Source of the DNA: Thalassotalea atypica
GTDB lineage: Bacteria > Pseudomonadota > Gammaproteobacteria > Enterobacterales > Alteromonadaceae
Assembly: GCF_030295975.1 (NCBI RefSeq)
Contig: NZ_AP027364.1
Coordinates: 1,240,001 to 1,304,000, forward strand
DNA: 64,000 nucleotides
Direction: 5' to 3'
In this document: positions 11,601 to 29,594 of the stretch, piece by piece
Layout of the letters: the number at the start of each line of letters is the position of its first letter
How positions within the stretch are numbered: the first letter of the stretch is position 1
Made by a program: the position numbers and the translations under genes
The notes under the pieces: model-generated
Told to the model about the DNA's origin: nothing
The model's input: only the letters and a program-made list of their open reading frames with translations
Databases searched by the model: none

Positions 11601-11973
11601 ATGTTAAGAAAATGTAATTAAACGATATTAAATTTGACTTAATACGAAAGAATTAGTAAAACTTATATTAGCAAATATTTTTGATCATTAAGAAGGATCG
11701 GCTAGCGTACTTTATATTTAGTTGTCACTAAAATGGCTTCACAAAGTTTAATAAATTGTGTTCATTTTGAACAAAACGAAAATAGTTTATTAAATTTGTA
11801 GTTTTTTAATACAGTTTTTTATATTGCAGGTTGACACATTCTTTGTCGTCTGGGAGTATTGGCTAGTTGTATTCTAAATTAATAAATCCTTTTAAATGGC
11901 AAAAGTTAAATTTGCGGTAACAGTAAATTTAGATTTTTTGTTATCTTAATTAAATAGCAATTGGTTGGGAACT
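11601..11973 (+). promoter_or_regulatory. Intergenic region before TonB operon 1
   Basis: An AT-rich 373-bp stretch with no gene visible and no strong terminator for the oxygenase pair. It holds copy 2 of the 19-bp repeat (11691-11709) and a TTGACACATT sequence (11831-11840) usable as a -35 element. The same 10-mer occurs upstream of TonB operon 2 at 25678-25687. The -10 (about GAGTAT, 11854) is poor. Confidence 0.4.
11691..11709 (+). repeat. 19-bp direct repeat, copy 2
   Basis: Matches 18 of 19 bases of the sequence at 4285-4303. It lies about 90 bp after the last modification gene and before the TonB operon. Confidence 0.5.
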
Positions 11974-12753
11974 ATGTCCAAAATAAGTAAAAAAAGCCTA
12001 GTCGCTTCGACGATAGCAGGCGTATTGGCATTAGCATGTAGTAATATTGCTGCAGCTGACGCTCTAACAGATCTACAAAAAGCAGAAGCTAAGATTTTCA
12101 AAGCTTCAGCTAAGTCTCAAAGTAAAGTTGATAGCATTTACGAGCAAACTCAAGATTTATTAGCAGAGTACCGCACTACTGTTGATGAAACTGATGTATT
12201 ACGAGGCTACAACGATCACGTACAACGCATGGTTGATGACCAAAACGCAAACATTGCTTCATTACAACGTCAAATCGACGGTATTGATAAAATTAAGCAA
12301 GGTGTTGTACCACTAATGTACAAAATGATTGATACGTTAGAAAAATTCGTTGAATTAGACGTGCCAATGAACCTTGAGAATCGTAAAGAGCGTATCGCTG
12401 GTTTACGTGACGTAATGGCTGATTCAAATGTTACAACGTCTGAGCAATTCCGTTTAGTATTAGAAGCGTACGAAATCGAAGCTGGTTACGGTACGATTTT
12501 TGACGCTTATCAAGGTGAATTAGACCTTGGTGACCGTGTAATTACTGCTGACTTCGTTCATATGGGACGTATTTCATTAGTTGCACAATCATTAGACTAC
12601 AAACAAGCTTGGGTTTGGAATAATGATTCTCGTTCATGGGATGAGTTAGGTGACGAATACCTTAAATCTATTACAGATACTATTCGCATGGCACGTAAGC
12701 AGTTGCCAATGGACTTAACTAAATTACCAGTATTTGCAGCGGGAGCAAAATAA
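11974..12753 (+). CDS. DUF3450 periplasmic protein of TonB operon 1
   Basis: About 259 residues with a signal peptide (hydrophobic core TIAGVLALACSNIAAA, cleavage near ADA). The mature protein is mostly helical with coiled-coil character (about 30-120), and it carries the DUF3450 hallmark PLMYKMIDTLEKFVELDVPM. I chose the ATG at 11974 over the in-frame TTG 9 nt upstream because only the ATG has usable spacing from a purine-rich site. DUF3450 genes typically head TtpC-type TonB operons of Vibrio, Shewanella and relatives; the molecular role is not established but is probably periplasmic and tied to the TonB complex. The stop codon overlaps the next start (TAATG). A paralogue lies at 25809. Confidence 0.88.
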   Translation: MSKISKKSLVASTIAGVLALACSNIAAADALTDLQKAEAKIFKASAKSQSKVDSIYEQTQDLLAEYRTTVDETDVLRGYNDHVQRMVDDQNANIASLQRQIDGIDKIKQGVVPLMYKMIDTLEKFVELDVPMNLENRKERIAGLRDVMADSNVTTSEQFRLVLEAYEIEAGYGTIFDAYQGELDLGDRVITADFVHMGRISLVAQSLDYKQAWVWNNDSRSWDELGDEYLKSITDTIRMARKQLPMDLTKLPVFAAGAK

Positions 12754-14102
12754 TGAAGAAAGTTATTAATTTTGTATTGCTTGCTGCATCACTTTCAGCA
12801 GGTTTCGCAACTACAGCAAGTGCGAATGAACTAGACAAGCTTTTGGAACAAGTAAAAGCAGATCGTATTTCTGAAGCTAAATTAGATAAAAAGCGTGAAG
12901 CAGAGTTCTTAGCTGCACGTGCTGACAAACAAGCGCTTTTGAACAAAGCGAAAAAAGACTTAGCAGATCAAAACGCTCGTAACGACCGTTTAACTAAAGA
13001 ATACGCTGCTAATGAAATTACCTTAGCGCAAAAAGAAGTTGAACTTGACAACGCTCAAGGTACTTTAGGTGAAATGTTCGGTGTTAGCCGTGCAGCAGCT
13101 GCAAGTGCGTACGGTTCAATCTCAACGTCAATTGTAAGTGCTCAATACCCAGGTCGTGGTGAATCATTAAACCGCATTGCTAACTCTAAAGAAATTCCAG
13201 CATTGGAAGATTTAGAAGAATTATGGTTTAGCCTTCAAACAGAAATGACTGAGTCAGGTAAAGTTGCTCAATTCTCTACTGAAGTAACTAACCTAGATGG
13301 TTCAAAGTCTACTGAAAATGTTACACGTATCGGTACATTTAACATCGTATCTGACAATGGTTTCTTAAACTACAATGATGAAGTAGGTCAAGTTCAACCT
13401 CTTGCTAAGCAACCAGCTGGTTACATCTCAGGCACAGCGGCTGACTTCTTTAGCGTAAGCTCTGGTTTTGCACCGGTTTATGTTGACCCTTCACGTGGTG
13501 CTATTTTAGCGTTAGAAACACGTAAGAAAACACTAGAAGAGTTCTACCATCAAGGTGGTACTGTTGGTTACGCAATCACAGTATTACTTATCCTAGGTTT
13601 CTTAATTGCATTAGAACGTTTCATTGTTCTAGGTGCGGTGACTTCAAAAATGAAGACACAACAAAAGAACTTAGCACAGCCTAACGAAAACAACCCGCTT
13701 GGTCGCTTATTAAAAGTTTACCAAGAGAACAAAGGTGTTGATGCTGAAACGTTAGAACTTAAATTAGATGAAGCTATTTTACGTGAAACTCCTTCAGTTG
13801 ACCGTGGTATTAACTTAATCAAAATGTTCGCAGCTATTGCTCCGTTAATGGGTCTATTAGGTACTGTTATCGGTATGATCTTAACCTTCCAAACAATTAC
13901 ATTGTTCGGTACAGGTGACCCTAAAATTATGGCGGGTAACATCTCATTAGCACTAGTAACAACTGCGTTGGGTCTAATCGCTGCACTTCCTCTAATTCTT
14001 ATTCACAGCGTAGTTGCAGGTAAGAGTAAAGCTGTACTTCATAAATTAGACGAGCAAAGTGCTGGTTTGATTGCTGCAATCGCAGAGAAGGAGTCTAAAT
14101 AA
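12753..14102 (+). CDS. ttpC: TtpC-type ExbB-like proton channel component (TonB system 1)
   Basis: A 449-residue inner-membrane protein. It has a signal peptide (about 1-24), a periplasmic coiled-coil and globular region (25-265), then a MotA/TolQ/ExbB-like membrane domain: a TM segment near GYAITVLLILGFLIALERF and two more in the region from IAPLMGLLGTVIGMILTFQTITLFGTG onward. This is the layout of TtpC, the fourth component of the Vibrio TonB2 complex, needed there together with ExbB2, ExbD2 and TonB2. Start and stop overlap both neighbours by 1 nt, so it is strictly co-translated. Annotation as a flagellar MotA would be wrong. Confidence 0.9.
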   Translation: MKKVINFVLLAASLSAGFATTASANELDKLLEQVKADRISEAKLDKKREAEFLAARADKQALLNKAKKDLADQNARNDRLTKEYAANEITLAQKEVELDNAQGTLGEMFGVSRAAAASAYGSISTSIVSAQYPGRGESLNRIANSKEIPALEDLEELWFSLQTEMTESGKVAQFSTEVTNLDGSKSTENVTRIGTFNIVSDNGFLNYNDEVGQVQPLAKQPAGYISGTAADFFSVSSGFAPVYVDPSRGAILALETRKKTLEEFYHQGGTVGYAITVLLILGFLIALERFIVLGAVTSKMKTQQKNLAQPNENNPLGRLLKVYQENKGVDAETLELKLDEAILRETPSVDRGINLIKMFAAIAPLMGLLGTVIGMILTFQTITLFGTGDPKIMAGNISLALVTTALGLIAALPLILIHSVVAGKSKAVLHKLDEQSAGLIAAIAEKESK

Positions 14103-14626
14103 TGTTATTCCTGATAGAGCTTGTAGAATCTGTCAGGAGTTTTATTGCAACTGGCGGTAATGTTTTATACTTCGTCGCCGTTGCTCTCTTATTGATGTGG
14201 ATACTCATGATAGAGAGATATTGGTTCTTAGCATCTAATTATCCAACAATGCGTGATGATATTATCAAGCGTTGGGATGCTAGAGCAGATACTACCTCTT
14301 GGTATGCACATCGTATCAGAGATACATGGATCTCCGAAGCGACAGAATTACTTGAGCGAAATATGCTTACTATTAAAACCTTGGTGGCAATGTGTCCACT
14401 GATTGGGTTACTAGGTACAGTTACCGGTATGATTTCAGTATTCGAAACCATGGCTCAACAAGGTACAGGTAATCCGCGTCTAATGGCAGCTGGTATATCG
14501 ATGGCAACAATACCTACAATGGCAGGTATGGTTGCAGCATTATCAGGTGTGTTTTTTAGCACACGCTTAGACGCTAAAGTTAAACTAGCAAAGGCTAAAC
14601 TGGTTGACAGTTTACCTCATCACTAG
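14102..14626 (+). CDS. exbB: ExbB-like TonB energizing protein (system 1)
   Basis: A 174-residue short ExbB/TolQ family protein with three membrane segments: about 16-38 (ATGGNVLYFVAVALLLMWIL), about 95-120 (MCPLIGLLGTVTGMISVFETM) and about 130-155 (AGISMATIPTMAGMVAALSGVF). With ExbD it forms the proton channel driving TonB. The short cytoplasmic loop is typical of ExbB2-type proteins. Its start overlaps the ttpC stop by 1 nt. Confidence 0.92.
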   Translation: MLFLIELVESVRSFIATGGNVLYFVAVALLLMWILMIERYWFLASNYPTMRDDIIKRWDARADTTSWYAHRIRDTWISEATELLERNMLTIKTLVAMCPLIGLLGTVTGMISVFETMAQQGTGNPRLMAAGISMATIPTMAGMVAALSGVFFSTRLDAKVKLAKAKLVDSLPHH

Positions 14627-14638
14627 AGAGATATTAGA

Positions 14639-15040
14639 ATGGCACGTAAACGTTTTCGTGAAGAGGAAGAAGCAGCAATTGATATGACGCCGATGCTTGA
14701 CATCGTATTCATCATGTTGATCTTCTTCATTGTAACTACCTCATTCGTAAAAGAAGCAGGTATTGAAGTAAATAAACCAAAAGCAGCTAACCAATCTAAG
14801 CAAAAATCTGCAAATATTTTTGTTGCCGTAAAAGATACCGGTGAGATTTGGTTAGACAAGCGTCGCGTCGATGTTGAACGCGTTGCGGCTAACATTGAAA
14901 AACTATTAGCAGAGCAACCAACTGACGTTGTTATCATTCAAGCTGACAAAGACGCAAAACATGGCGTAGTTGTTAAAGTAATGGATGCTATCAAGGAAGC
15001 AGGGATTGACCGAATTTCTATCGCTGCTGCAAAGGGGTAG
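14639..15040 (+). CDS. exbD: ExbD biopolymer transport protein (system 1)
   Basis: 133 residues: a short cytoplasmic N-terminus, one TM helix (about 22-42), and a periplasmic domain. The helix begins with the conserved proton-carrying Asp in TPMLDIVFIMLIFFIVTTSF. The family motif FVKEAGIEVN follows the helix. It partners ExbB and TtpC in energizing TonB. A 12-bp gap carries its ribosome site, and tonB starts 3 bp downstream. Confidence 0.94.
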   Translation: MARKRFREEEEAAIDMTPMLDIVFIMLIFFIVTTSFVKEAGIEVNKPKAANQSKQKSANIFVAVKDTGEIWLDKRRVDVERVAANIEKLLAEQPTDVVIIQADKDAKHGVVVKVMDAIKEAGIDRISIAAAKG

Positions 15041-15043
15041 TTT

Positions 15044-15661
15044 ATGGGTCGCTTTTTAGCATCAATACTACTAGGCGCAGCGGTTACTTTCGGATTGTTT
15101 GCTTTCATGGCATTTCTTGTTTCTGGTACAGATAGAAACGATGAAGAAAAGCTTGAAAATATCATAGTCGAAGTTAACACAACTCCGCCTAAGTCGGCAG
15201 CTGAAGCACGTCGCCGTGTTCCGCCACCGCCGCCGCCGCCGCCTAAGACTCCGCCTAAGCCACAAGCGCCGGAACCTGAGACGAATAACAACCAAGGTGG
15301 TATTAGCTTTAATATGCCTGGTATACAACTTTCAGGCGCATCAACGGGGTTATCAGCTCCAGGAGCGGGCTTTGGACGTGATGGTGAGGCAACTCCTATC
15401 GTACGTATCGAGCCTAAATATCCGATACAAGCTGCTCGTGACGGTAAAGAAGGTTGGGTTCGTTTATCATTTACGATCAATGAAATTGGTGGTGTTGAAG
15501 ACGTACAAGTTATTGAAGCCGAGCCAAAACGTATTTTCGATAAAGAAGCAAAACGCGCTTTACGTAAATGGAAATACAAACCAAAAGTTGTTGACGGCAA
15601 GCCGCAAAAGCAACCTGGTTTAACGGTTCAACTTGACTTTAAAATGGACGGAGGTAAGTAA
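15044..15661 (+). CDS. tonB: TonB energy transducer (system 1)
   Basis: 205 residues. One N-terminal TM anchor (about 6-26), a proline-rich periplasmic linker containing eight consecutive Pro followed by KTPPKP, and a C-terminal TonB domain (about 120-205) with EPKYPIQAARDGKEGWV and the conserved KWKYKP. It contacts the TonB box of outer-membrane receptors. The polyproline run makes translation likely to depend on EF-P. It is short relative to E. coli TonB, as is usual for TonB2-type proteins. The likely client is the receptor at 1346, by proximity. Confidence 0.93.
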   Translation: MGRFLASILLGAAVTFGLFAFMAFLVSGTDRNDEEKLENIIVEVNTTPPKSAAEARRRVPPPPPPPPKTPPKPQAPEPETNNNQGGISFNMPGIQLSGASTGLSAPGAGFGRDGEATPIVRIEPKYPIQAARDGKEGWVRLSFTINEIGGVEDVQVIEAEPKRIFDKEAKRALRKWKYKPKVVDGKPQKQPGLTVQLDFKMDGGK

Positions 15662-15663
15662 GA

Positions 15664-16926
15664 ATGTATAAAAAACTAGTCACAGCATTAGTTATTGCAT
15701 CTACAGTTGCTGCGGCACAGCTTCCTTTATCTTTTGATGTTTCTGCGGCAGAAGCTGCTAAAAAAGAAAAGAAAAAGCGTCCAACTCAACTTGTAGGGCC
15801 TTCTGTTGGTAAGAAAGTACAAAAAGCATTTGAGCTTTATAGTACGGATGATATCGACGGTGCTTTGGTGTTACTTTTGGATATCGAGGCTAAAAAAGTC
15901 TACGATAAAGCTTACGTAGATCGCTTTATTGCGGTTATGTACGCTACTAAAGGTAATGAAGAAGCAAAAGCAATTAAGTACCTTAAATTGGCTGTTGCAC
16001 CTGACATCTTAAATGAAGGTGATCATGGCGAGTCAATTAAGTTACTTGCTGACCTTCAAATGCAAACCAAAGCTTATAAAGAGGCGCTTGTTAATTACAA
16101 AGCGTGGATGGACTTTACTGGTAAAGAAGATGCTGATACTTATGTAAAGATTGCAAATGCTTACTATTCTATCCGTCGCCTTGATAAAATTATCGAGCCA
16201 GCTGATAAAGCTATAGCGCTTTTTGGTGATAAACATAACCAAAATCCATATATCCTTAAAATTACCTCATATTATGAACGTAAGATGTATAAGGATGCTG
16301 TTGATGTTTTAGAGACGGTTGTTCAAATCTTCCCTAAAAATAAACAGTGGTGGACGCAACTGGGTATGTTTTACTTACTAATTGAAGATTATAACAAGGC
16401 CGTTCAAACACTTGATCTTGCGTACAAGCAAGGCTTTTTAGAAAAAGAGTCTGAGATCAAAACGTTAGCTAACTTATATTCTCAAAGTGGTGCACCGTTC
16501 AAAGCAGCTAAATTGCTTGAAAAGCATATAGGAACTGGTTTAGTTAAACGTGATGAGACCAATATCGGTTCACTAGCTAATGCGTACCATTCAGCTCAAA
16601 ATATTGGTATTGCAGCTAAGTATTATGGTGAGTTGGCTAAGTTGACGAACGAAGCTCAGCATTACCGTAAGCAAGGCATGTTATTAAAGCAAGACGAGCA
16701 GTTCAAATCTGCGATCGTTGTTTTAAACCAAGCAATCGATAAAGGTGCTAAGAATAAAGGCCGATTGTACATGAGCTTGGCAGAATCTCATTTCTACCTA
16801 GGTCAGTATAAAAAAGCATATGCTGAAATTAAGAAAGCAATGAAAGATCCTAAAACGCGTAAATCTGCGAAGGGTTGGGTATCATTCATTGAAGATACTG
16901 CACGTCGTAAAAACGTTGCAATCTAA
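15664..16926 (+). CDS. Periplasmic TPR protein of TonB operon 1
   Basis: 420 residues with a signal peptide (cleavage near VSAAEA) and tetratricopeptide-type helices from about residue 50 to the end (for example LDKAYVDRFIAVMYATKG and YMSLAESHFYLGQYKKAYAEI). It is the terminal gene of the operon, 3 bp after tonB; a TPR gene occupies the same place in the Vibrio TonB2 cluster. It probably scaffolds protein contacts of the TonB complex in the periplasm, but this is inference. Followed by a strong terminator. Confidence 0.88.
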   Translation: MYKKLVTALVIASTVAAAQLPLSFDVSAAEAAKKEKKKRPTQLVGPSVGKKVQKAFELYSTDDIDGALVLLLDIEAKKVYDKAYVDRFIAVMYATKGNEEAKAIKYLKLAVAPDILNEGDHGESIKLLADLQMQTKAYKEALVNYKAWMDFTGKEDADTYVKIANAYYSIRRLDKIIEPADKAIALFGDKHNQNPYILKITSYYERKMYKDAVDVLETVVQIFPKNKQWWTQLGMFYLLIEDYNKAVQTLDLAYKQGFLEKESEIKTLANLYSQSGAPFKAAKLLEKHIGTGLVKRDETNIGSLANAYHSAQNIGIAAKYYGELAKLTNEAQHYRKQGMLLKQDEQFKSAIVVLNQAIDKGAKNKGRLYMSLAESHFYLGQYKKAYAEIKKAMKDPKTRKSAKGWVSFIEDTARRKNVAI

Positions 16927-17963: not shown

Positions 17964-18059
17964 ACTACATCCTGATCAAAATTTTCAGTATTTTAGTGAA
18001 ATGTTGTATTTAGAAACAGCTATAAAAATAAATTAAAAGCATGAAATTTTATCTCTGAC

Positions 18060-18096
18060 TTGATGGTCTCAATAAAAACACTTATAAATGTATAAG
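18060..18096 (+). promoter_or_regulatory. Candidate promoter and dyad of EGKCG precursor gene
   Basis: TTGATG (18060-18065), 17-bp spacer, TATAAA (18083-18088), about 35 nt before the start codon. The -10 lies in a perfect dyad CTTATA-AATG-TATAAG (18081-18096). No metal-regulator box was recognised with confidence. Confidence 0.5.
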
Positions 18097-18124
18097 TTAG
18101 TTACTTTTTTTAGAGGGAAATAGA

Positions 18125-18589
18125 ATGAATTTATTTAAGAAAGCTTCTGCAACAACGTTATTAGGTTTATTTACTGCTGCAATGTTTGTAACTGCACCAG
18201 CACAGGCTGAAGTCAACCCATTCGCTTCGGAAGACGTAGTTTCTATGTCTGTAGTTGCTGGCGGTGACAAATGTGGTGAAGGTAAAAAAGGCAAATGTGG
18301 CGAAGGCAAATGTGGTGAAGGTAAAGGTAAAGCCAAAGGTAAGTGCGGCGAAGGCAAATGCGGTGAAGGTAAAGCCAAAGCTAAAGGCAAATGCGGCGAA
18401 GGCAAATGTGGTGAAGGTAAAGCCAAAGCTAAAGGCAAATGTGGCGAAGGCAAATGTGGTGAAGGTAAAGCTAAAGGCAAATGCGGCGAAGGCAAATGTG
18501 GTGAAGGTAAAGCCAAAGCTAAAGGCAAATGCGGCGAAGGCAAATGTGGCGAAGGTAAAGGCAAAGGTAAAGCTAAGTGTGGTGGTTAA
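18125..18589 (+). CDS. EGKCG-repeat secreted peptide, HvfA/bufferin-like RiPP precursor candidate
   Basis: A 154-residue protein with a signal peptide (hydrophobic core to APAQA, cleavage near residue 28), a short region EVNPFASEDVVSMSVVAGG, then a Gly/Lys/Cys-only tail. The tail has one DKCGEGK, six blocks of GKCGEGKCGEGK separated by 2-4-residue KA/GK spacers, and a final AKCGG: 14 Cys in all, six in exact EGKCG context. Signal peptide, NPF motif and EGKCG repeats match the precursors (HvfA, bufferin-type) whose cysteines are converted by an MNIO (DUF692) enzyme plus partner into copper-binding groups. No MNIO, DUF2063 partner, DoxX or ECF sigma gene is visible in this window, so modification would have to act in trans, if it occurs. 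The ribosome site is AGAGGG and the gene is monocistronic. Confidence 0.8.
   Translation: MNLFKKASATTLLGLFTAAMFVTAPAQAEVNPFASEDVVSMSVVAGGDKCGEGKKGKCGEGKCGEGKGKAKGKCGEGKCGEGKAKAKGKCGEGKCGEGKAKAKGKCGEGKCGEGKAKGKCGEGKCGEGKAKAKGKCGEGKCGEGKGKGKAKCGG
18270..18580 (+). repeat. In-frame tandem repeat, mostly 48-bp period
   Basis: Six repeat units encoding GKCGEGKCGEGK plus a spacer; the period is 48 bp, shortened to 42 bp in one unit. Synonymous changes between units (TGT/TGC, GGT/GGC) are few, suggesting recent expansion and likely length variation between strains. Confidence 0.9.
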
Positions 18590-18625
18590 TTTAATAACAC
18601 ACAGCTAGAGTGTCTATTTATAAAG

Positions 18626-18663
18626 GCGAGTGACTTATAAACAAAATAGTCTCTCGCTTTTTT
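18626..18663 (+). terminator. Terminator of EGKCG precursor gene
   Basis: Stem GCGAG-T-GACT / AGTC-T-CTCGC with a 12-nt loop, followed by T6 interrupted only at the end. It lies 37 nt after the stop codon. Confidence 0.8.
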
Positions 18664-19831: not shown

Positions 19832-19903
19832 CAGCCGTAGGATTACCGCAAAAATTTCTATAACACCATGTTTATATTAAACACTGCGGAGCAGGTAACA
19901 AAG

Positions 19904-22636
19904 ATGCAAATAACAAAATTATTCAAAATAAGTGCAGTTTCAACTGCCTTGGTATTAGCGGGTTGTGGTGGTGACGTTAAGTTGTCATCAGAAGTAGATA
20001 ACTCAGTTGGCGATACCATAATTAACAACCCAGCACCGACTAACCCAGATCCGGTAGTAGAGCTTCCTGGTAAGCCAAGTTCATCACTTTCCCAAGAAGT
20101 GAGTACAGCGATAGGGTTTGATGTTGTCGTACAAATCATTGATGGTCAAATCAGTGAAGATACAGAGCTACTTGCAGTTTCTGGCTCAACGCCAGTTTTC
20201 TATGCCATTGATGGTGCATTAGAAGTGATGGCGAATGCCACTTTAACAATTAATGAAGGTACAGTGTTGTTTGGTCAGTCAGGAAATGATTATGTTGTAG
20301 TTCATCGTGACGCGAAAATCATGGCGGAAGGCTCTAAAGAGGAGCCAATTATTTTCACTTCGCTACAAGATGTTAAAGGTCAAGACGCTACAGCAGGTCA
20401 ATGGGGTGGTATTGTTATTTTGGGTAACGCTCCATCAAACAAATGTCCTACAGATGGCAGCGCATGTGCCCTTCAAATTGAAGGTGTTGCTGAAGGTGCT
20501 GTATTCGGTGGCGACAACTGGGAAGATGACTCAGGGTCACTTAAGTATGTCGTAGTTAAGTTTGCTGGTTTCGAAATCGCCCCAGATAATGAACTAAACG
20601 GTGTTACATTTGGTGGTGTTGGTTCAGGCACTACAGTTGACTACTTGCAAGTACACGCTAACGCTGATGACGGCGTTGAGTTTTTCGGTGGTGCAGCAAA
20701 TGTTAAACATTTGGTATTAACAGGCAATAAAGACGATAGCATCGATTGGGATAACGGTTTCCGTGGCCGCATACAACACGTTTTCGTGCAACACGCTGCT
20801 AACGCTGGTGAAGCTAACCGCGCTATCGAAGCAGATAACGATGGTTCATCACCTGGCAAAGAGCCAATGTCTAACCCAACGATTTCAAATATGACAATCA
20901 TGGGTAACAACTTCGATACGGCAGATAAAGATTCAGAAGGTATTTATCTGCGTGAAGGTACTTCAGCAAGCATCTACAACACAGTAGTAACTGGGCCTAC
21001 TGAAATGGGCGAGTGTTTAGAATTCGAAGTAGGTCAAACAGTTGCTAACGCTGAAGCGGGTAACATCGTTTTCCAAAGTTCAACAATGGCTTGTAACAAT
21101 GGCGAAAATTTTAAAGGCGCAGGTGATTTCGACCTTGCTACTTGGTTTTCTGCTGAAACAACGAACATGATTAGCACATCTATCTTAGTAGATGAGTCAG
21201 GTATTCCTAGTGCACAATCTCCTTTATTAGGTGCAGGCCAAGATGCATCAGCCGTAGATACGTGGTTTGACGCAACTGATTACCAAGGGGCATTCGACGG
21301 CACCAATGATTGGCGTCAAGGCTGGGCATTTGGTTTCGGTGGTGGTGTAATCACTGAACCGCCAGAAACTGAAGGTTGTCCTACAGGTACATCAGCAATT
21401 GCTCCAATCAATGGCAAAACAACGTGTGAAGTTTCAGGTGTTATCACTTCAGACTTAACGCTAACATCTGAAAACTTATACGCGCTAAGCGGTCCAGTAT
21501 TTGTTGGTAACGATAAAGCTGACTCAGCAACACTAACAATTGAAGCTGGTACAACACTCTTCGGTCGCTCAGGTGGCGACTACTTAGTGGTTAGCCGTGA
21601 TTCAAAAATTGAAGCTTTGGGCTCAGCTTCAGCGCCGATCATCATGACTTCTAGTGAAGATATCAACGGCATCGAGACGGGCTCTGGCCAATGGGGTGGT
21701 GTTGTCCTTTTAGGTAATGCACACTCTAACAAATGTCCTACAGACGGCAGCGCTTGTGCACTTCAAATTGAAGGTGTAGAAGAAGGAGCTGTATTTGGTG
21801 GTGATGATACTGAAGCTAACTGGGCAGACAATTCAGGTACATTACGCTATGTTGTCGTCAAGCACGCCGGTTTTGAAATTGCACCAGACAATGAATTAAA
21901 CGGTATCACATTCGGTGGTGTGGGCTCAGGTACAACGGTTGAGTACATCCAAGTTCACGATAACGCTGATGACGGTGTAGAGTTCTTCGGTGGTGCAGTT
22001 AATGCTAAATACGTTGTTCTTACATCGAACAAGGATGACTCAGTAGACTGGGATAACGGCTTCCGCGGTAACATGCAATACGTACTTGTTAAGCACGATG
22101 CTAACGACGGCGAAGCTAACCGTGCAATCGAAGCAGATAACGACGGCTCTAACCCAAGCAAAACACCTCAATCTAACCCTACCATTGCGAACATGACAAT
22201 CATCGGTAACGGATTTGATACAGCAGACAAAGACTCTGAAGGTATCTACTTACGTGAAGGTACTCGTGCGCAATTGCATAACTTCGTGGTAACAAACGCT
22301 GCTGGCGAATGCTTAGAGCTCGAAGCAGGTGTTACCGTTGACCAAGCAATCGCAAATCAAACAGTAATCACTAACTCGGTATTCGCGTGTGGCGAAAACT
22401 TCAAAAGCCAAGACAGTTCAACAGGCGCGTTTGACCTAATGGATTGGGTATTAAACATCAATAGTGATAACAGCACAGAAGCCGGCATTACAGACGTAAT
22501 AAACGGTATCTACACAATTGATACAACAACACCATACAGCTTCGGCGCAGATGCTTTCTTTGACAATGCTAATCACATTGGTGCGGTATCTGAAGACAAC
22601 GATTGGACTGAAGGATGGACTGTAGGTCTTGAATAG
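19904..22636 (+). CDS. Duplicated beta-helix outer lipoprotein linked to TonB receptor 2
   Basis: 910 residues when started at the ATG at 19904, which has an AGG ribosome site and places a lipoprotein signal directly at the N-terminus (lipobox LVLAGC). The mature protein begins with a Pro/Asn-rich linker, then contains two copies of a roughly 400-residue module (from about 110 and about 540). Each module has a repetitive parallel beta-helix look: LTINEGTVLFGQSGNDYVVV, GQWGGIVILGNA, CPTDGSACALQIEGV, a central GVGSGTTVDYLQVHANADDGVEFFGGA, and SIDWDNGFRG, with many Asp/Asn/Gly turns that could bind calcium. Two Cys in each CPTDGSAC motif may form a disulfide. It lies 208 bp upstream of a TonB receptor and is probably its surface partner, in the manner of SusD with SusC; that role is inference. 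Confidence 0.7.
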   Translation: MQITKLFKISAVSTALVLAGCGGDVKLSSEVDNSVGDTIINNPAPTNPDPVVELPGKPSSSLSQEVSTAIGFDVVVQIIDGQISEDTELLAVSGSTPVFYAIDGALEVMANATLTINEGTVLFGQSGNDYVVVHRDAKIMAEGSKEEPIIFTSLQDVKGQDATAGQWGGIVILGNAPSNKCPTDGSACALQIEGVAEGAVFGGDNWEDDSGSLKYVVVKFAGFEIAPDNELNGVTFGGVGSGTTVDYLQVHANADDGVEFFGGAANVKHLVLTGNKDDSIDWDNGFRGRIQHVFVQHAANAGEANRAIEADNDGSSPGKEPMSNPTISNMTIMGNNFDTADKDSEGIYLREGTSASIYNTVVTGPTEMGECLEFEVGQTVANAEAGNIVFQSSTMACNNGENFKGAGDFDLATWFSAETTNMISTSILVDESGIPSAQSPLLGAGQDASAVDTWFDATDYQGAFDGTNDWRQGWAFGFGGGVITEPPETEGCPTGTSAIAPINGKTTCEVSGVITSDLTLTSENLYALSGPVFVGNDKADSATLTIEAGTTLFGRSGGDYLVVSRDSKIEALGSASAPIIMTSSEDINGIETGSGQWGGVVLLGNAHSNKCPTDGSACALQIEGVEEGAVFGGDDTEANWADNSGTLRYVVVKHAGFEIAPDNELNGITFGGVGSGTTVEYIQVHDNADDGVEFFGGAVNAKYVVLTSNKDDSVDWDNGFRGNMQYVLVKHDANDGEANRAIEADNDGSNPSKTPQSNPTIANMTIIGNGFDTADKDSEGIYLREGTRAQLHNFVVTNAAGECLELEAGVTVDQAIANQTVITNSVFACGENFKSQDSSTGAFDLMDWVLNINSDNSTEAGITDVINGIYTIDTTTPYSFGADAFFDNANHIGAVSEDNDWTEGWTVGLE
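20252..20985 (+). repeat. Internal duplication in lipoprotein gene, copy 1
   Basis: Pairs with 21542-22287 at an offset of 1,290 bp, growing to 1,302 bp after a 4-codon insertion. Stretches such as the CPTDGSACALQIEGV coding segment are nearly identical at nucleotide level. Confidence 0.9.
21542..22287 (+). repeat. Internal duplication in lipoprotein gene, copy 2
   Basis: Second module of the duplicated beta-helix; see the copy at 20252-20985. Confidence 0.9.
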
Positions 22637-22686: not shown

Positions 22687-22824
22687 TTTACATTTGTAAA
22701 CTCCGTGCTTCTGCTGTGTCTACGAACTCACTGACTTCAATTTGAAATACCTAACGTCTAATTCTAATGACGTGTTCATTATTAGGCGATTCTCGTTCTA
22801 TAACTAGCCCTTTTTCAGGGCTAG
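22687..22824 (+). promoter_or_regulatory. Dyad and leader hairpin upstream of TonB receptor 2
   Basis: A perfect dyad TTTACA-TT-TGTAAA (22687-22700) and, 20 nt before the start codon, a stable hairpin CTAGCCCT-TTTTC-AGGGCTAG (22804-22824) without a T-tract. The hairpin abuts the ribosome site (AGAGG, 22834) and could control translation or mRNA processing between lipoprotein and receptor. Confidence 0.4.
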
Positions 22825-22844
22825 CCATTCTAAAGAGGTTAGAA

Positions 22845-25508
22845 ATGAACACTAAATTAAAGCACTTTGGATTATCGAGTTTAGCGGTAGCCGTGCTATC
22901 GGGCTTAACCGGTGTCCAAGCCAGTGCACAAGAAGCTGACGACGAAGCGATAGAAGAAGTCGTAGTAAAAGTCAGCCGTTTAAAGGGCACTGCCAGTGCT
23001 GTTATTGAAGAGCGCAAAAACCAAGCGTTCGTAGCAGACATCTTAGGTGCAGAACAAATATCTCGTACCGGTGATAGCGACGCAGCTGCGGCATTAAGAC
23101 GTGTTACAGGTCTTACACTTGTTGACGGCAAATTTATTTACGTGCGTGGTTTAGGTGAGCGTTACTCAAGTACGCAACTAAATGGAGCAGCAGTTCCATC
23201 TCCAGATCCTACGCGAACCGTTATTCCTTTGGATTTATTCCCTTCTTCAATTATTGAGTCGTTATCTGTTCAAAAGTCGTACTCGCCTTCTATGCCTGCG
23301 CATTTTGGTGGTGGTAACGTCGATATACGCCTGAAGTCTATCCCGACTGATTTCTTGTTCAATATCGCCGGTAATATTGGCGGTAGCTCTGAAAACAGTA
23401 ACAATGGTCTGAGCTACGAAGGCGGTGACGATGATTGGTATGGTATTGATGATGGCACACGTGAAGCGCCATCTGCATTAAAGCAGTTATGGCGCAACTA
23501 CAATAATGTGGGTGAATTGTCTCAAGAAGACAACCGAGCAATCGCTGCTGATTTGTATAAGGATTATGATCCTAAGTCCGAAAATCCAGATCCTGATTTT
23601 GGTTTAGACTTAACCGTTGGCAATCGCTTTGAAGTGGCGGATTTTCGATATGGATTCTTAACCGCTCTCTCATATGATAACGAGTGGCAAGTATCTGAGG
23701 AATATGAAGGCCAAGACTACGTGCTACAACCTTCTGGCGAATACGATTTAGTGCGTGGTTTTGATGATGTTGTTTCTACTGAGCACTCAGTTAGGTGGTC
23801 AGGCATGTTCAACTTTGGTGTTGAATACATGCGTGATCATAAAATCGATTTTAGCTCGACAATACTTCATGACACACGTGATCAAATCAAAGAGAAATTT
23901 GGTAATACAAATAACGTGTTGATCAGCGATGGTTTGCGTGTTCGTGATGTTGAAGTGGCGTATGAAGAACGTGAGTTGATTGTCAATCAAGTTCGAGGCC
24001 AGCATAACTTTCCTGATTATTGGTTTATCGGTGTTGACTGGAAATATTCTGATTCACGTTCTAATCGTTATGCCCCAGGTAATATTTCAACTCGTTATAT
24101 ACTAGCGGATGAAAATGAAGACGGCATCTTTGATGTACAAAACGAAAGTTCATTAAGAAATGCGACTACGGCATCAAGGTATACCTTCCAAGATCTTGAT
24201 GATGATGTCGAAAACGCAGGCTTTAATGTCTCTTTACCGCTGACTTTTGACACTACAGAAATTGAGTTGAAGACAGGTGCTGATTATATCGAGAAAACGC
24301 GTGAAGCTTTTGCGCGTCGTATCGATGTTAACACCTTAGCATTTAATAACCTTGATTTAACGGGTTATGAAATGAACGAAATCTTAAACGATGATGTTGT
24401 GTTAAACCACCCATTAACAGGCAGTGAGCGTTTGATTCGCGATACCTCTGTTGCCGGTGATGATTACTTGTCAGCACAGAAAATTGATGCGTACTACTTT
24501 GAAGCTGACTTTTTCTTCGATAACACGTGGCGCGTAAGCGGTGGTGTTCGTTGGGAAGACTTCAGACAAGTGGTTGCGCCACTTGACCCTGCAACCGGTC
24601 AGTTTGATATTCCAGCAAACCCTACAGAAGAAGACTTGGCTGAACTTGCGTTCCAAGAAGATGATGTATTTGGTGCATTAGCCTTAACCTACATTCTTGA
24701 CGACACCATGCAATTTCGTGCGTCTTACGGTGAAACAGCTATTCGTCCTGATATTCGTGAGGTTGCACCAGCGACTTACATCGATCCATTAACTGAGTTC
24801 CCGATCGGTGGTACGCCATCGGTACGCAGCACCCGTATTAAAAACTATGATCTTCGTTGGGAATGGTATTTAGACACCGGAGAAAACGTGTCAGTAGGTT
24901 TATTCTACAAAGACATGGAAGATCCGATTGAATCAGTACAATCTCCTGCACAAGATGGTCCGCCACTTATTCGTATCGCCAATGCAGAAGAAGGTGAAGT
25001 GTATGGGATTGAAGTAGAATTCATGAAGGATTTTGCTTTTATCGGTCCTTTCTTAGGTATGGATGGTAATGACTTCTTTATGTCAGGTAACGTGACATTA
25101 AGTGATTCTGAAATCAATATCGATACGCAAAGTGTTGTTGATCAAACAGGTGTATCTACTACCATCACTAACCCAAGTCGCCGCATGACAGGTCATTCTG
25201 AATATGTCATTAACTTAAACCTTGGTTATGACCACCCAAATGGTAATCACACCGCTACACTTGCATACAACGTGTTTGGTGAGCGTATTATCATTCCTGG
25301 CATTGATGAGAAAGATGATGCTTACGAGCAACCATTCCATTCACTAGATTTGGTGTACACCTACTACCCAACGTTTGCGACAACGCTAAAGTTAAAGGTG
25401 CAAAATATCTTGGATGAGACAAAGGAAATTGAATTTGAAGATACGTTATTACGCAGTGAAACGCGTGGTATTGGTTTCGATCTTTCTTTTAAATGGGAGT
25501 TTGATTAA
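22845..25508 (+). CDS. TonB-dependent outer membrane receptor (system 2)
   Basis: 887 residues from the ATG at 22845, which has an AGAGG site and places a proper signal peptide at the start (cleavage near ASAQEA); an upstream in-frame ATG at 22767 would add an unlikely 26 residues. A candidate TonB-box region is AIEEVVVKVSR. The plug contains TGLTLVDGKFIYVRGLGERY and FPSSIIESLSVQKSYSPSMPAHFGGGNVDI; the barrel ends in GFDLSFKWEFD. This is a different subclass from the receptor at 1346, defined by the RGLGERYSSTQLNGA.VPSPDP pattern. The upstream beta-helix lipoprotein and the downstream TonB operon make a self-contained uptake locus. Ligand unknown. Confidence 0.92.
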   Translation: MNTKLKHFGLSSLAVAVLSGLTGVQASAQEADDEAIEEVVVKVSRLKGTASAVIEERKNQAFVADILGAEQISRTGDSDAAAALRRVTGLTLVDGKFIYVRGLGERYSSTQLNGAAVPSPDPTRTVIPLDLFPSSIIESLSVQKSYSPSMPAHFGGGNVDIRLKSIPTDFLFNIAGNIGGSSENSNNGLSYEGGDDDWYGIDDGTREAPSALKQLWRNYNNVGELSQEDNRAIAADLYKDYDPKSENPDPDFGLDLTVGNRFEVADFRYGFLTALSYDNEWQVSEEYEGQDYVLQPSGEYDLVRGFDDVVSTEHSVRWSGMFNFGVEYMRDHKIDFSSTILHDTRDQIKEKFGNTNNVLISDGLRVRDVEVAYEERELIVNQVRGQHNFPDYWFIGVDWKYSDSRSNRYAPGNISTRYILADENEDGIFDVQNESSLRNATTASRYTFQDLDDDVENAGFNVSLPLTFDTTEIELKTGADYIEKTREAFARRIDVNTLAFNNLDLTGYEMNEILNDDVVLNHPLTGSERLIRDTSVAGDDYLSAQKIDAYYFEADFFFDNTWRVSGGVRWEDFRQVVAPLDPATGQFDIPANPTEEDLAELAFQEDDVFGALALTYILDDTMQFRASYGETAIRPDIREVAPATYIDPLTEFPIGGTPSVRSTRIKNYDLRWEWYLDTGENVSVGLFYKDMEDPIESVQSPAQDGPPLIRIANAEEGEVYGIEVEFMKDFAFIGPFLGMDGNDFFMSGNVTLSDSEINIDTQSVVDQTGVSTTITNPSRRMTGHSEYVINLNLGYDHPNGNHTATLAYNVFGERIIIPGIDEKDDAYEQPFHSLDLVYTYYPTFATTLKLKVQNILDETKEIEFEDTLLRSETRGIGFDLSFKWEFD

Positions 25509-25808: not shown

Positions 25809-26582
25809 ATGAAATTGTCTAAACTGGCACAAGCTAGTTTGCTGATAGGCACTACTAGTCTATGGGCAGGCACTGTTGTTGCTGAAAACTCACCGCAATT
25901 AGAACAAGTTGTTAATGCGGGTCAAGAAATCAACCAATCTGCTGTTAAATCTCAGCAAAAAATTGACAAAATCGCGGATCAAATCCAATCAAAACTACAG
26001 CAATTCAACGTTGTAAACAAAGAAGTTGATGGCTTAAACGTTTATATCAGCCAAATGCAAAAACAGGTTGATAACCAACTATTAGAGCTGGCGCAAATTT
26101 CTGAATCAATGGAACAAGTCAGCATCATCGAACGCCAAATATCACCATTGATGGCACGTATGATTGATACGTTAGAAGTGTTTGTTTCACTAGATGTCCC
26201 ATTTTTACCTGAAGAACGCTCAAAACGAATTGCATCGTTAAAATCTATGATGGAAAGAGCTGATATCGCTGTATCTGAAAAGTTCAGACGCGTGCTAGAA
26301 GCCTACCAAGTGGAAGTTGATTATGGCCGTACTATCGAGGCCTACTCCGATAAATTGGCGTTAAACGGCAATGAAATGGACGTCGACTTCTTGCGTATTG
26401 GCCGCGTGGCGTTCGTCTATCAAACACGTGATGGCGCTAACTCAGGGTTATGGAATAGCAAAACTTTATCATGGGATGAGTTAGATGCTGGCTATAGAAC
26501 TGATTTGAACAAAGCGTTGCGTATTGCTCGTAAGCAGCTTGCCCCTGATTTGGTGATTGTGCCAATTAACGTTTCTGAATAG
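25809..26582 (+). CDS. DUF3450 periplasmic protein of TonB operon 2
   Basis: 257 residues, signal peptide to about VVAENS, then a long helical region. Paralogue of the protein at 11974: both carry PLMxxMIDTLExFVxLDVP, the ERxKRIAxL stretch, and the SWDEL and ARKQL C-terminal motifs. It heads the second TtpC-type operon, 15 bp before the ttpC paralogue. The function of DUF3450 is undefined; association with TonB complexes is the established fact. Confidence 0.88.
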   Translation: MKLSKLAQASLLIGTTSLWAGTVVAENSPQLEQVVNAGQEINQSAVKSQQKIDKIADQIQSKLQQFNVVNKEVDGLNVYISQMQKQVDNQLLELAQISESMEQVSIIERQISPLMARMIDTLEVFVSLDVPFLPEERSKRIASLKSMMERADIAVSEKFRRVLEAYQVEVDYGRTIEAYSDKLALNGNEMDVDFLRIGRVAFVYQTRDGANSGLWNSKTLSWDELDAGYRTDLNKALRIARKQLAPDLVIVPINVSE

Positions 26583-26596
26583 TCACGGAGTTTACA

Positions 26597-27955
26597 GTGA
26601 AAAAGTATCTATCTACCTTATTTACTACAGCGTTAGTTGTATCATCAGCGTCTGTATTTGCTCAGCAAGCTTCAACACTTGACGAATTATTAGCACAACT
26701 TGCAGAAGGAAGAGTGGCGCAAACTCGACAAAATAAGCAACGTGAAGCTGACTTTGTAGCCAGAAAATCAGATCAAGATAAGATTTTGTCTAATGCAAAA
26801 AATACGCGAAACGATCGAATTTTAGAAAGTACGCGCTTGGAAAATAAATTCCAAGTGAATGAATTGGCGTTAGCAAACAATCAAGATGCATTGAACAAGC
26901 GTTTAGGTGAATTGAAAGAGTTATTCGGTGTATTACAACAAGTCGCTGGCGATACCAAAAGCAAGTTTAAAAATTCCGTTATTTCTGCACAAATCCCAAA
27001 TCGCGGTGAATTTTTAGATGAGTTCGCACAGTCTATGGGCTCATCTTCAAAGCTAGCGTCCATTGAAGAAATTGAAAAAATCTGGTTTGAATTACAACGT
27101 GAAATGACTGAAAGCGCTAAGATTTCGAGGTTTGAACGTGAGGTTGTATTAGCTGATGGCACTAAAGAGCAAGCTCAAGTGACACGTATTGGTAATTTCA
27201 ACTTAGTTGCTAATGGAAAGTACTTAGAATACATCAACGAAACAGGCAGTGTTGCAGAGCTTATTCGTCAACCTTCAGGTCGTTATCTTGGTACTGCACA
27301 AGACATGACTAATGCAAGTAACAGCCAAGTGGCATTTGCACTAGACCCAACAGGAGGGTCAATTCTAAGCCTATTAGTGCAAGCGCCTGATACGCAAGAA
27401 CGTATCGATCAGGGTGGCCCTGTTGGTTATGTCATACTAGCAATTGGCGTTATTGGTTTACTTATCGCTATCGAACGCTTTTTTTCACTTTACCTCATTG
27501 GCGGTCGAGTTAACCGTCAGTTGAAATCAAAAACTGTCTCTAATGATAATCCGTTGGGTCGGGTGCTAGCCGTTAAAGACATTAACAAAAATGCTGATTT
27601 AGAAACACTTGAATTAAAATTGTCAGAGCGAATTTTACAGGAAGTACCTAAGCTCACTTCTCGCTTAACCATGATTAAAATCATATCGGTTGTAGCGCCG
27701 TTGATCGGCTTATTGGGAACGGTTACTGGTATGATAAATACCTTCCAAGCGATTACATTGTTTGGTACTGGCGACCCTAAACTAATGGCTGGTGGTATCT
27801 CTCAAGCACTTGTTACTACTGTACTCGGTCTAGTCGTCGCCATTCCAATGGTATTTATCTCAACCATGCTAAACACCAGAAGCCGCGGCATCATCAATAT
27901 TCTTCAGCAACAAAGTGCAGGCATCGTTGCTGAAAGAGCAGAGCAAGGAGCATAA
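26597..27955 (+). CDS. ttpC: TtpC-type ExbB-like component (TonB system 2)
   Basis: 452 residues: signal peptide (cleavage near VFAQQ), periplasmic coiled coil (about 25-115), a middle domain, and the ExbB-like membrane domain with GPVGYVILAIGVIGLLIAIE and APLIGLLGTVTGMINTFQAI. It is collinear with the system 1 protein and shares ITLFGTGDPK.MAG.IS.ALVTT. Differences are concentrated in the periplasmic half, consistent with a different partner set. Confidence 0.9.
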   Translation: MKKYLSTLFTTALVVSSASVFAQQASTLDELLAQLAEGRVAQTRQNKQREADFVARKSDQDKILSNAKNTRNDRILESTRLENKFQVNELALANNQDALNKRLGELKELFGVLQQVAGDTKSKFKNSVISAQIPNRGEFLDEFAQSMGSSSKLASIEEIEKIWFELQREMTESAKISRFEREVVLADGTKEQAQVTRIGNFNLVANGKYLEYINETGSVAELIRQPSGRYLGTAQDMTNASNSQVAFALDPTGGSILSLLVQAPDTQERIDQGGPVGYVILAIGVIGLLIAIERFFSLYLIGGRVNRQLKSKTVSNDNPLGRVLAVKDINKNADLETLELKLSERILQEVPKLTSRLTMIKIISVVAPLIGLLGTVTGMINTFQAITLFGTGDPKLMAGGISQALVTTVLGLVVAIPMVFISTMLNTRSRGIINILQQQSAGIVAERAEQGA

Positions 27956-27958
27956 CCC

Positions 27959-28486
27959 ATGACTTTATTCATCGACATGATGAATAGCATTCGTGAGTTT
28001 CTCGACACGGGCGGTCAAGTATTGACCGTCATTGCCGGTGTCATTTGCTTGATGTGGTTATTGATTTTTGAACGTGTCTATTTTTACTTGAAAACCTATC
28101 GTTCAATAAAACAAAGCATTATTGCTAACTGGAACAGCCGAACTGAACGTTATTCATGGAATGCTGAACATATTCGAATGGCCAATGTTTCAAGAGCATC
28201 TGAGCTACTCAACCAGAACGTAGCACTCATTCAATCATTAGTTGTACTTTGTCCATTACTAGGACTGCTAGGGACGGTAACGGGCATGATCCAAGTGTTT
28301 GATGTGATGGCCATATCAGGCAGTGGTAATGCCCGTTCAATGGCATCAGGCGTTTCACGGGCAACTATTCCTACGATGGCAGGTATGGTTGGTTCGTTAT
28401 CTGGTGTATTTGTTGTCACATGGTTGCAACGCACATCAAAACGAAGAACAGAGCTTCTCGAAGACAATCTTCCAATGGCTCATTGA
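27959..28486 (+). CDS. exbB: ExbB-like TonB energizing protein (system 2)
   Basis: 175 residues with three TM segments, including LCPLLGLLGTVTGMIQVFDV and ATIPTMAGMVGSLSGVFVV. Paralogue of the protein at 14102. It starts 3 bp after ttpC. With ExbD it forms the proton-conducting stator for TonB. Confidence 0.92.
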   Translation: MTLFIDMMNSIREFLDTGGQVLTVIAGVICLMWLLIFERVYFYLKTYRSIKQSIIANWNSRTERYSWNAEHIRMANVSRASELLNQNVALIQSLVVLCPLLGLLGTVTGMIQVFDVMAISGSGNARSMASGVSRATIPTMAGMVGSLSGVFVVTWLQRTSKRRTELLEDNLPMAH

Positions 28487-28515
28487 TTTAAATTTAGAAA
28501 GAACAGGAACGTAAA

Positions 28516-28929
28516 ATGCGCTCTCAATTAGCAAAAGTTTTACAAGAACAAGAAGAAGTCGAAGAAATTAACATGACGCCAATGCTGGATGTGGTCTTCA
28601 TTCTATTGATTTTCTTCATCGTGACCGCTTCATTCGTTAAAGAAGCAGGTATTGAAGTTAACCGCCCAGAAGCGGCAACCGCAGTTAAAAAAGAACGCGC
28701 CAATATTTTAGTCGCGATTAGCGATAAAGGAGAAATTTGGATCAATAAACGTCGTGTTGACGTGCGCGCCGTGCAAGCAAATATTGAACGTTTAAAGGCT
28801 GAAAATCCACAAGGTACGGTTGTTATTCAAGCGGATAAAAAAGCAACTACAGATATCTTGATCAAAGTGATGGACTCTGCAAGAGCCGCTGGTGTATTTG
28901 ATGTTTCAATCGCTGCACAAGAGGCTTAA
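28516..28929 (+). CDS. exbD: ExbD biopolymer transport protein (system 2)
   Basis: 137 residues; NMTPMLDVVFILLIFFIVTASF holds the proton-carrying Asp and the single TM helix, followed by FVKEAGIEVNRPEA and the periplasmic domain. Close paralogue of the protein at 14639. The 29-bp gap before it is the longest within the core of this operon. Confidence 0.94.
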   Translation: MRSQLAKVLQEQEEVEEINMTPMLDVVFILLIFFIVTASFVKEAGIEVNRPEAATAVKKERANILVAISDKGEIWINKRRVDVRAVQANIERLKAENPQGTVVIQADKKATTDILIKVMDSARAAGVFDVSIAAQEA

Positions 28930-28932
28930 ATC

Positions 28933-29583
28933 ATGACAACGATCGCAATGCCTGAGTCCGGAATTTCAGCCATGCTAAAACGCTACGTACCGGCATTAGC
29001 ATTTGCTATTGTCGTGACGCTGTTTTTACTCGTGGGCATGAAAACCCTAATTACTGGTGGGAATGACGTATTAACTGAGCCACCAAGAGGTAATGTGCTC
29101 GACTTTATACGTTTAAAAAGAGACGAAACGGTACAAAAGAAAGCGCGTAAACCGCAAAAGCCACCCAAGCCTGCAACACCACCACCGCAAATGCAGCCAC
29201 CACAAATGCAGCAAAGCAACCCGAATAGTGATGCGGTAAGTACATCATTTAATGCTGATATTGCTGTAGATGCAGGTTTAGCTGGTGGCTTAAGCCTTGA
29301 GAGTGGTGATGGTGACTACTTACCGATTGTTAAAGTTGCACCGGTTTACCCTCGCAGAGCACAATCGAGAGGAATTGAAGGGTACGTTATTGTTGAATTT
29401 ACCGTGTCAAAAAATGGCTCAGTAAAAGATGCTGTTGTGATTGAAGCAAGTCCTGAAAGTATTTTCGATCGTGCGGCGTTAGACGCAGCATTAAAGTTTA
29501 AATATAAGCCACGTGTTGTCGACGGTGAGCCGATGGAAGTTGCTGGCGTACAAAATAAAATCAGCTTCGAAATTGACGGTTAG
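28933..29583 (+). CDS. tonB: TonB energy transducer (system 2)
   Basis: 216 residues. TM anchor about 15-38, a Lys/Pro/Gln linker (KKARKPQKPPKPATPPPQ) instead of the octaproline of system 1, and a C-terminal TonB domain (about 135-216) with APVYPRRAQSRGIEGYVIVEF and KFKYKPRVVDGEP. Likely client is the receptor at 22845. Divergence in the linker and near the YP motif suggests the two TonBs are not simply redundant. Confidence 0.93.
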   Translation: MTTIAMPESGISAMLKRYVPALAFAIVVTLFLLVGMKTLITGGNDVLTEPPRGNVLDFIRLKRDETVQKKARKPQKPPKPATPPPQMQPPQMQQSNPNSDAVSTSFNADIAVDAGLAGGLSLESGDGDYLPIVKVAPVYPRRAQSRGIEGYVIVEFTVSKNGSVKDAVVIEASPESIFDRAALDAALKFKYKPRVVDGEPMEVAGVQNKISFEIDG

Positions 29584-29594
29584 GAGAATAGAAC

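Follow-up and report, generated by a model that had tools for sequence, protein, structure and literature searches.

What does the precursor of a cysteine-modified, copper-binding product do where no modifying enzyme is encoded beside it? The question is raised by an open reading frame at 18125-18589, on the forward strand of the window, as we call the whole 64,000-nucleotide stretch of Thalassotalea atypica DNA analysed here. The mature products of captophorins carry 5-thiooxazole on their cysteines, with a loss of 4 Da per Cys, and bind copper, and research on captophorins and bufferins has focused on this heterocycle, formed by the MNIO, as the part that makes the product active. For the gene in the window, an initial annotation had offered two outcomes: that the enzymes act on it in trans, or that it encodes an unmodified thiol-rich metal sponge. 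The reading that we favour, with rather more confidence than doubt, is that the gene is the orphan remnant of a dus//hvfABC locus, whose product most likely acts unmodified and is induced by an ECF sigma factor.

The 154-residue reading frame is real, and encodes a Sec-type signal, an NPF motif and a Cys-repeat tail. The signal peptide (18125-18208), judged by eye, has a probable cleavage site after AQA at residue 28, and is followed by the NPF motif of the mature N-terminus (residues 31-33; 18215-18223) and by the Cys-repeat domain (18269-18586), in which six exact GKCGEGKCGEGK blocks, starting at residues 56, 72, 88, 104, 118 and 134, alternate with Lys/Ala-rich spacers. All 14 cysteines of the protein lie within KCG, and the codon differences among the six blocks are synonymous only. 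These features agree with those initially described. The NCBIfam model of the HvfA family domain (NF050137) matched the protein with 71.4 bits, for a cut-off of 19.5. The full-length HvfA equivalog model (NF050188) scored it at 67.2 bits, below a cut-off of 95 that was reached in none of 43 genomes (37 MNIO-free genomes of the family, described below, and six MNIO-bearing members of the genus). No Pfam family was matched up to E = 1, including the DUF2282 domain (PF10048) that characterizes the bufferin Buf1, and the combination of a Sec-type signal with repeated EGKCG is that of the Buf_EGKCG/oxazolin group. Chance low complexity was ruled out by the presence of the gene in all seven genomes of the genus and by the occurrence of the family domain across 45 of the 52 genera. 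By its sequence, the product is a Buf_EGKCG/oxazolin (HvfA) relative. Its motif number, at first thought to be about twice the usual one, falls well inside the range of 72 precursors with a linked MNIO (median of 10 KCG, range 2-26; 10-14 in the genus), and up to 58 Cys per precursor are given in the accessible part of PMC12452194.

The gene looks monocistronic, as had been proposed. Upstream lies a divergent gene for Dus (tRNA-dihydrouridine synthase, PF01207; 17004-17963, reverse strand), which served as the synteny anchor; downstream, a hairpin followed by a T run (18622-18661, forward strand; -15.8 kcal/mol, loop of 12) probably acts as an intrinsic terminator and precedes a convergent gene. 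A consensus scan allowing only loops of 3-8 returned no terminator downstream. For the convergent gene, neither Pfam (threshold of E 0.001) nor PDB sequences (0.01) gave a match, and the sialidase-fold name once given to it found no backing there. A riboswitch was ruled out, with no Rfam match at gathering score, and no plasmid-borne relatives were found in PLSDB at 1e-5. Further out, the EGKCG gene lies between what we take to be two operons of the same order (11965-16926 and 25809-30896), each encoding, by the look of their products, a DUF3450-like protein, two MotA/TolQ/ExbB-like proteins, an ExbD-like protein, a TonB-like protein and a TPR protein. A presumably TonB-dependent-receptor-like gene (22767-25508) stands ahead of the second of these, and adjoins a reading frame (19868-22636) for a 922-residue lipoprotein-like protein that seems, by eye, to consist of two similar halves.

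The initial observation that the window encodes neither an MNIO nor its partner was upheld, and the whole-genome check proposed with it was run. A search with PF05114 of the single-contig, 4.39 Mb genome identified one MNIO (C1:2607698-2608513), 1.35 Mb from the window gene and directly followed by the only DUF2063 match of the genome (C1:2608543). Because it sits between a DUF2282 (bufferin-1 type) precursor and the sole DUF2063 gene, this MNIO appears to be the enzyme of another precursor, and the window locus lacks a linked MNIO gene and a linked DUF2063 (PME type 1) gene. Across the genus the MNIO type varies: three genomes have Buf1, one has Buf2, two have both, and no MNIO was found in the seventh, a 93%-complete assembly in which the precursor is still present.

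MNIOs were then aligned by the type of their adjoining precursor and their subtype residues were compared. EGKCG-linked MNIOs presented DF (ERDF) in 75 of 77 cases and RR (GLGLRR) in 68 of 77, with 8 not parsed, and neither RR nor DF was present in any of 19 MNIOs beside DUF2282 precursors or 25 beside Buf2 precursors. The Buf1-type MNIO of T. atypica reads GVGLRH and EWDL (RH/DL), outside the Lys-Cys subtype. ERDF and GLGLRR appear to correspond to Asp249-Phe250 and Arg15-Arg16 of FonB, a correspondence read from the motifs and not from the FonB sequence; the roles of these residues are treated in PMC13097082, as far as its text is accessible. The comparison is only indicative, since, according to the same partial text, thiooxazole is still made by FonB variants altered at these specificity positions, and the residues around Cys are poorly conserved in the case of DUF2282-type MNIOs.

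The suggested comparison of related genomes was carried out on 246 genomes of the family. The EGKCG domain was identified in 179 of them and an MNIO in 176, with 142 genomes carrying both, 37 the EGKCG domain only, 34 an MNIO only and 33 neither. The 37 EGKCG-bearing genomes (of 179) without an MNIO match cluster by genus. They are spread over 11 genera, in six of which all sampled EGKCG-bearing genomes are MNIO-free (four in g9, three each in g28 and g34, and one each in g4, g13 and g41), and they account for 6 of 11 such genomes in g8, 8 of 10 in both g38 and g52, one of two in g39 and one of seven in g1. Completeness reaches at least 99% in 31 of the 37, a set that includes 12 single-contig genomes; three of the 37 (G044, G160 and G221) were recognized by the short domain model alone, with no NF050188 match. 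DUF2063 is absent from 36 of the 37, the exception being a fragment with two stops in G221. This count stems from a separate search of the 37 genomes, and not from blastp with the T. atypica DUF2063 protein at the loci, which found no match even in linked loci. The 12 single-contig genomes and the concurrent absence of DUF2063 rule out that MNIOs were missed through assembly gaps. Furthermore, no RR/DF MNIO was seen in the 16 genomes of the same 11 genera that bear both MNIO and EGKCG: in 14, every MNIO is DUF2282- or Buf2-associated, the MNIO of G083 reads RA/DA and adjoins no recognized precursor, and G193 has only a broken piece. These sequence data lend good support to the view that the precursor needs no MNIO in this clade.

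Two of the genomes surveyed hold pieces of such genes. The broken MNIO piece of G193 (L195, contig C63) comes from a genus most of whose sampled members are without MNIO and DUF2063, and the DUF2063 fragment of G221 (C16:61344-61466) appears to be a gene remnant in a genus that mostly lacks both.

Precursor sequences were fetched for 34 of the 37 MNIO-free genomes, the three without an NF050188 match being left out of sequence work; 32 are readable in full, one is cut by a contig edge and one is N-masked. NPF is conserved in 32 of these 34, the two misses being the contig-edge and N-masked sequences, and in 51 of the 72 linked precursors. In 67 of the 72 linked precursors, NPF is followed at a distance of a few residues by GY or, rarely, GF (65 of 70 distinct precursors, as two genomes are included twice), GY alone being found in 64 of 72; it is missing from the HvfA of Haemophilus haemolyticus (L093), which is linked. 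This GY element, a criterion derived in this analysis and not a published one, was detected in none of the seven genus members and none of the 32 readable MNIO-free sequences. Among 42 further unlinked loci it was detected in 8, and of their genomes one, G041, was checked for an MNIO and has it. We suggest that the element helps the enzyme pair. Recognition of HvfA and bufferins reportedly involves the signal peptide (PMC13419390, in the portion accessible), and single Ala changes before the core are tolerated in the fon system, according to the accessible portion of PMC13097082. The two groups also differ in positive charge, with a median of 10.0 per 100 residues in 25 MNIO-free proteins versus 4.5 in 50 distinct NPF-bearing linked ones.

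The upstream region of the window gene contains an ECF-type promoter element, GAAAT-N17-GGTCT (18043-18069, forward strand), which is the sole match to GAAATN{15,18}GGTCT in the 64 kb, for a chance expectation of 0.36 in the whole window. No sigma-70 promoter was found in a scan of the upstream region on the same strand. The element, with a spacer of 16 or 17, lies upstream of the gene in all seven genus members and of 24 of 34 MNIO-free genes (20 of 25 in an earlier set), as well as of 28 of the 72 linked genes (19 of 24 from the family search and 9 of 48 from a wider named set), where 0.008 occurrences per 200 b are expected by chance. Between this element and the start codon, all seven genus loci present a palindrome, ACTTATA-N4-TATAAGT (18080-18097 in the window), a possible operator that is not reported for the other genera compared and could serve a second regulator of the EGKCG gene.

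A first, stricter promoter pattern found no match in the T. atypica genome, the window site included, and a relaxed one returned seven sites, compared to one with a reversed control pattern. The seven sites map to the window gene, the buf1A-MNIO-DUF2063 operon (with an N16 spacer), an ECF sigma gene followed by a DUF3379 gene, a DoxX gene, a GST gene, a gene for a secreted-looking AhpC/TSA protein and the interior of an unrelated reading frame (L206). The seven genus genomes together have 23 sites versus 9 control sites (2/1 in G002, 3/1 in G003, 3/2 in G004, 2/1 in G005 and 1/3 in G006, where the surplus over control is absent), and the EGKCG gene, the ECF gene and buf1A account for 6, 5 and 2 of the 23, respectively, or 13 in all. 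In T. atypica the sigma and DUF3379 genes are found at L228 1645-2920 (G000:C1:984500-989500), and the sigma gene's own GAAAT-N17-GGTCT (C1:987374-987400) falls inside its longest reading frame, just before the likely true start; the element of the window gene is hence shared with the upstream region of the sigma gene itself. All but one of the 37 MNIO-free genomes (36 of 37) contain DUF3379. In 30 loci of these genomes 26 adjacent ECF genes were seen, of which 23 have the element upstream, versus no occurrence in 181,822 background strand-bases; this arrangement looks like ECF autoregulation. We infer that the ECF sigma factor reads these promoters, with the DUF3379 protein as its likely anti-sigma factor, a pairing for which no paper naming DUF3379 with a sigma factor was found in the open-licence literature searched. 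The accessible text of PMC7907618 describes the hypochlorite-responsive RpoE2 of Haemophilus as controlling DoxX, periplasmic protein, COG3220 and DUF2063 genes, and that of PMC3511200 describes sigma-F of Caulobacter as controlling DUF2282, DUF692, DUF2063 and DoxX genes under heavy metal stress. The putative regulon outlined here resembles both in that precursor, MNIO, DUF2063 and DoxX-type genes would be under an ECF sigma factor, but differs from them in the DUF3379 gene that follows the ECF gene, and in that the element also stands ahead of the precursor in genomes where the search identified no MNIO.

The shared promoter element makes trans modification possible in T. atypica, where the product of the window gene could be an ordinary captophorin/oxazolin precursor on which the co-regulated Buf1-type MNIO-DUF2063 pair acts, with the MNIO-free relatives using the protein otherwise. 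The idea that one MNIO serves several precursors has been put forward in PMC12452194, in the part of it accessible, and an apparent in-trans layout exists in G041, where an EGKCG gene that keeps GY and an RR/DF-type MNIO are 59 kb apart. However, the T. atypica enzyme has RH/DL residues, all seven genus members lack GY, the MNIO type of the genus changes while the precursor stays, and 37 related genomes keep the protein with no MNIO found. We consequently regard trans modification as possible but unlikely. The alternative of an unmodified protein fits the 37 MNIO-free relatives and the missing GY better, even though the genome does encode an MNIO of its own. Given that this bufferin MNIO carries the same promoter element, the unmodified state of the precursor in T. 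atypica itself is put no higher than likely.

The conservation of the repeats also speaks for an unmodified protein with a function of its own. Counting strict GKxGE sites (looser GKxG counts count sites twice), Cys is kept at all 328 sites of the MNIO-free precursors (34 sequences, two of them partial) and at 509 of 513 sites of the linked ones. In five MNIO-free groups (21 loci from five genera), dN/dS of the repeat region, where defined, was 0.00-0.21, and synonymous differences were numerous; within the genus it was at most 0.05 where defined (11 of 15 pairs). Pairing the repeats with MAFFT is biased towards matches, which may lower dN in these estimates. Ten hand-picked MNIO-free pairs from the five groups showed 35 TGT/TGC differences, 5 replacements and 27 cases of Cys versus gap at aligned Cys codons, and ten linked control pairs, likewise hand-picked, showed 37, 10 and 19, respectively. 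The number of repeats does vary. As judged from these sequences, the MNIO-free precursors are under purifying selection.

The genomic context indicates how the enzymes may have come to be absent. A divergent dus gene (at least 45% identity) lies beside all seven genus precursors, 160-167 b away, and dus genes at the same threshold were found next to 14 of the 25 MNIO-free precursors, at 92-614 b, and next to 7 of the 72 linked ones, at 44-572 b, where the MNIO comes directly after the precursor (L025, L036 and L043 of Pseudoalteromonas, L040, L050 and L052 of Shewanella, and L102 of G069). In a tree of 36 Dus proteins, a single change separates the 29 orphan from the 7 linked rows (98/89, midpoint root), and this holds in 95% of bootstrap trees. 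The neighbour of many orphans, dus, is also that of seven loci with precursor and MNIO intact, so hvfBC was probably lost in place, which is the simplest reading, although it may instead have been inserted late into the linked lineages. As the orphans form essentially a single clade on the Dus tree, counts across orphan sequences are not independent. No dus gene was seen beside the g38 and g52 loci, and their inclusion hence relies on similarity of sequence and promoter. A tblastn search with eight EGKCG-type MNIOs against 21 orphan loci (7.6-12.5 kb) yielded no match to an MNIO remnant. A record named Endozoicomonas sp. G2_1 (L022), a name that may be wrong, likewise contains a dus//EGKCG orphan locus, and this locus falls among the orphan rows of the Dus tree.

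The constraint on Cys and its flanking residues, about as strong as in linked precursors, would also be expected if an enzyme of another family modified these cysteines in the MNIO-free lineages. The seven promoter matches of the T. atypica genome offer no obvious candidate for such an enzyme, dus alone recurs beside the orphans among dus, the window's downstream gene and MNIO, and the GY element is absent; we deem this explanation improbable. It is still harder to maintain that the constraint concerns Lys/Gly/Glu chemistry, such as the binding of calcium, polyanions or polysaccharides, and not Cys. The 124 residues of the window protein that start at NPF do include 33 Lys, 14 Glu and 2 Asp, and the MNIO-free proteins are the more cationic ones, but Cys within GKxGE is kept in MNIO-free genomes without exception. 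That the gene is a relic in decay after the loss of its pathway, as the near-complete absence of DUF2063 from these genomes might evoke, is scarcely credible and already contradicted by retention of the gene in several genera throughout their EGKCG-scored genomes, low dN/dS, intact GKxGE sites and a promoter element that is often kept.

The enzyme absence in relatives, the conserved place of the gene, the constraint on Cys, the shared promoter element and the absence of GY are computed observations, and the preferred reading of an orphan hvfA acting unmodified would connect them as follows. A dus//hvfABC-type locus would have lost the MNIO (hvfB) and its DUF2063 partner (hvfC) in the Colwellia/Thalassotalea lineage, and the precursor would have stayed, losing GY between NPF and the repeats and becoming more cationic. 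Because relatives have lost the enzyme while the protein remains strictly conserved, its cysteines probably work unmodified, and the precursor would now most likely act without 5-thiooxazole formation, as an exported Lys/Cys-rich protein. Thiol-oxidant or copper stress in the envelope would release the ECF sigma factor from its likely DUF3379 anti-sigma factor and the precursor would be made, its 14 cysteines binding soft metal, such as Cu(I), as thiolates, being oxidized sacrificially, or both. Export, the sigma assignment, the absence of modification and a metal or oxidant role are all inferred, and which ligand or oxidant the protein would meet is conjectured from precedent.

The precursor family itself, as well as stand-alone and enzyme-free cases, are already in print. 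With HvfA, fontiphorin, gonophorin and MmrA (the captophorins, or Lys-Cys group) the window protein shares the Sec signal, repeated EGKCG and paired motifs, but it differs from them in having no linked MNIO and DUF2063, no RR/DF-type MNIO in the genome and no GY. The Buf1 (DUF2282) operon of the same genome shares the promoter element with the window gene, but differs in combining a DUF2282 precursor with an MNIO and DUF2063 of its own. Stand-alone Buf_EGKCG precursors are documented in PMC12452194, the accessible part of which also counts EGKCG genomes without MNIO (67 of 2583 genomes) and proposes modification from another locus, no need for modification or lost function. The situation in the window, a precursor without MNIO, is the same, but goes beyond those cases in that the enzymes are missing by genus while the syntenic place, the constraint on Cys and the ECF-type promoter are kept, which disfavours loss of function. 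Among the open-licence matches listed, in the parts of them accessible, no report describes clade-wide, in-place loss of the enzymes with a constrained, ECF-controlled precursor.

Whether a RiPP precursor family has here reverted to an unmodified functional protein, an ECF-driven free-thiol buffer against copper or oxidants in a marine clade, is in our judgement evenly balanced. The GY element and the RR/DF residues suggest that the matching MNIO of a precursor is predictable. A clade that has the precursor, its cysteines and a stress-type promoter but no enzyme amounts to a natural experiment on the heterocycle-centred view of these systems, and its MNIO-free isolates, which include Thalassotalea loyana and Colwellia echini, are places to learn what the unmodified protein does. 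If the proposed reversion is true, the bare Cys repeat would be useful before, or without, thiooxazole chemistry.
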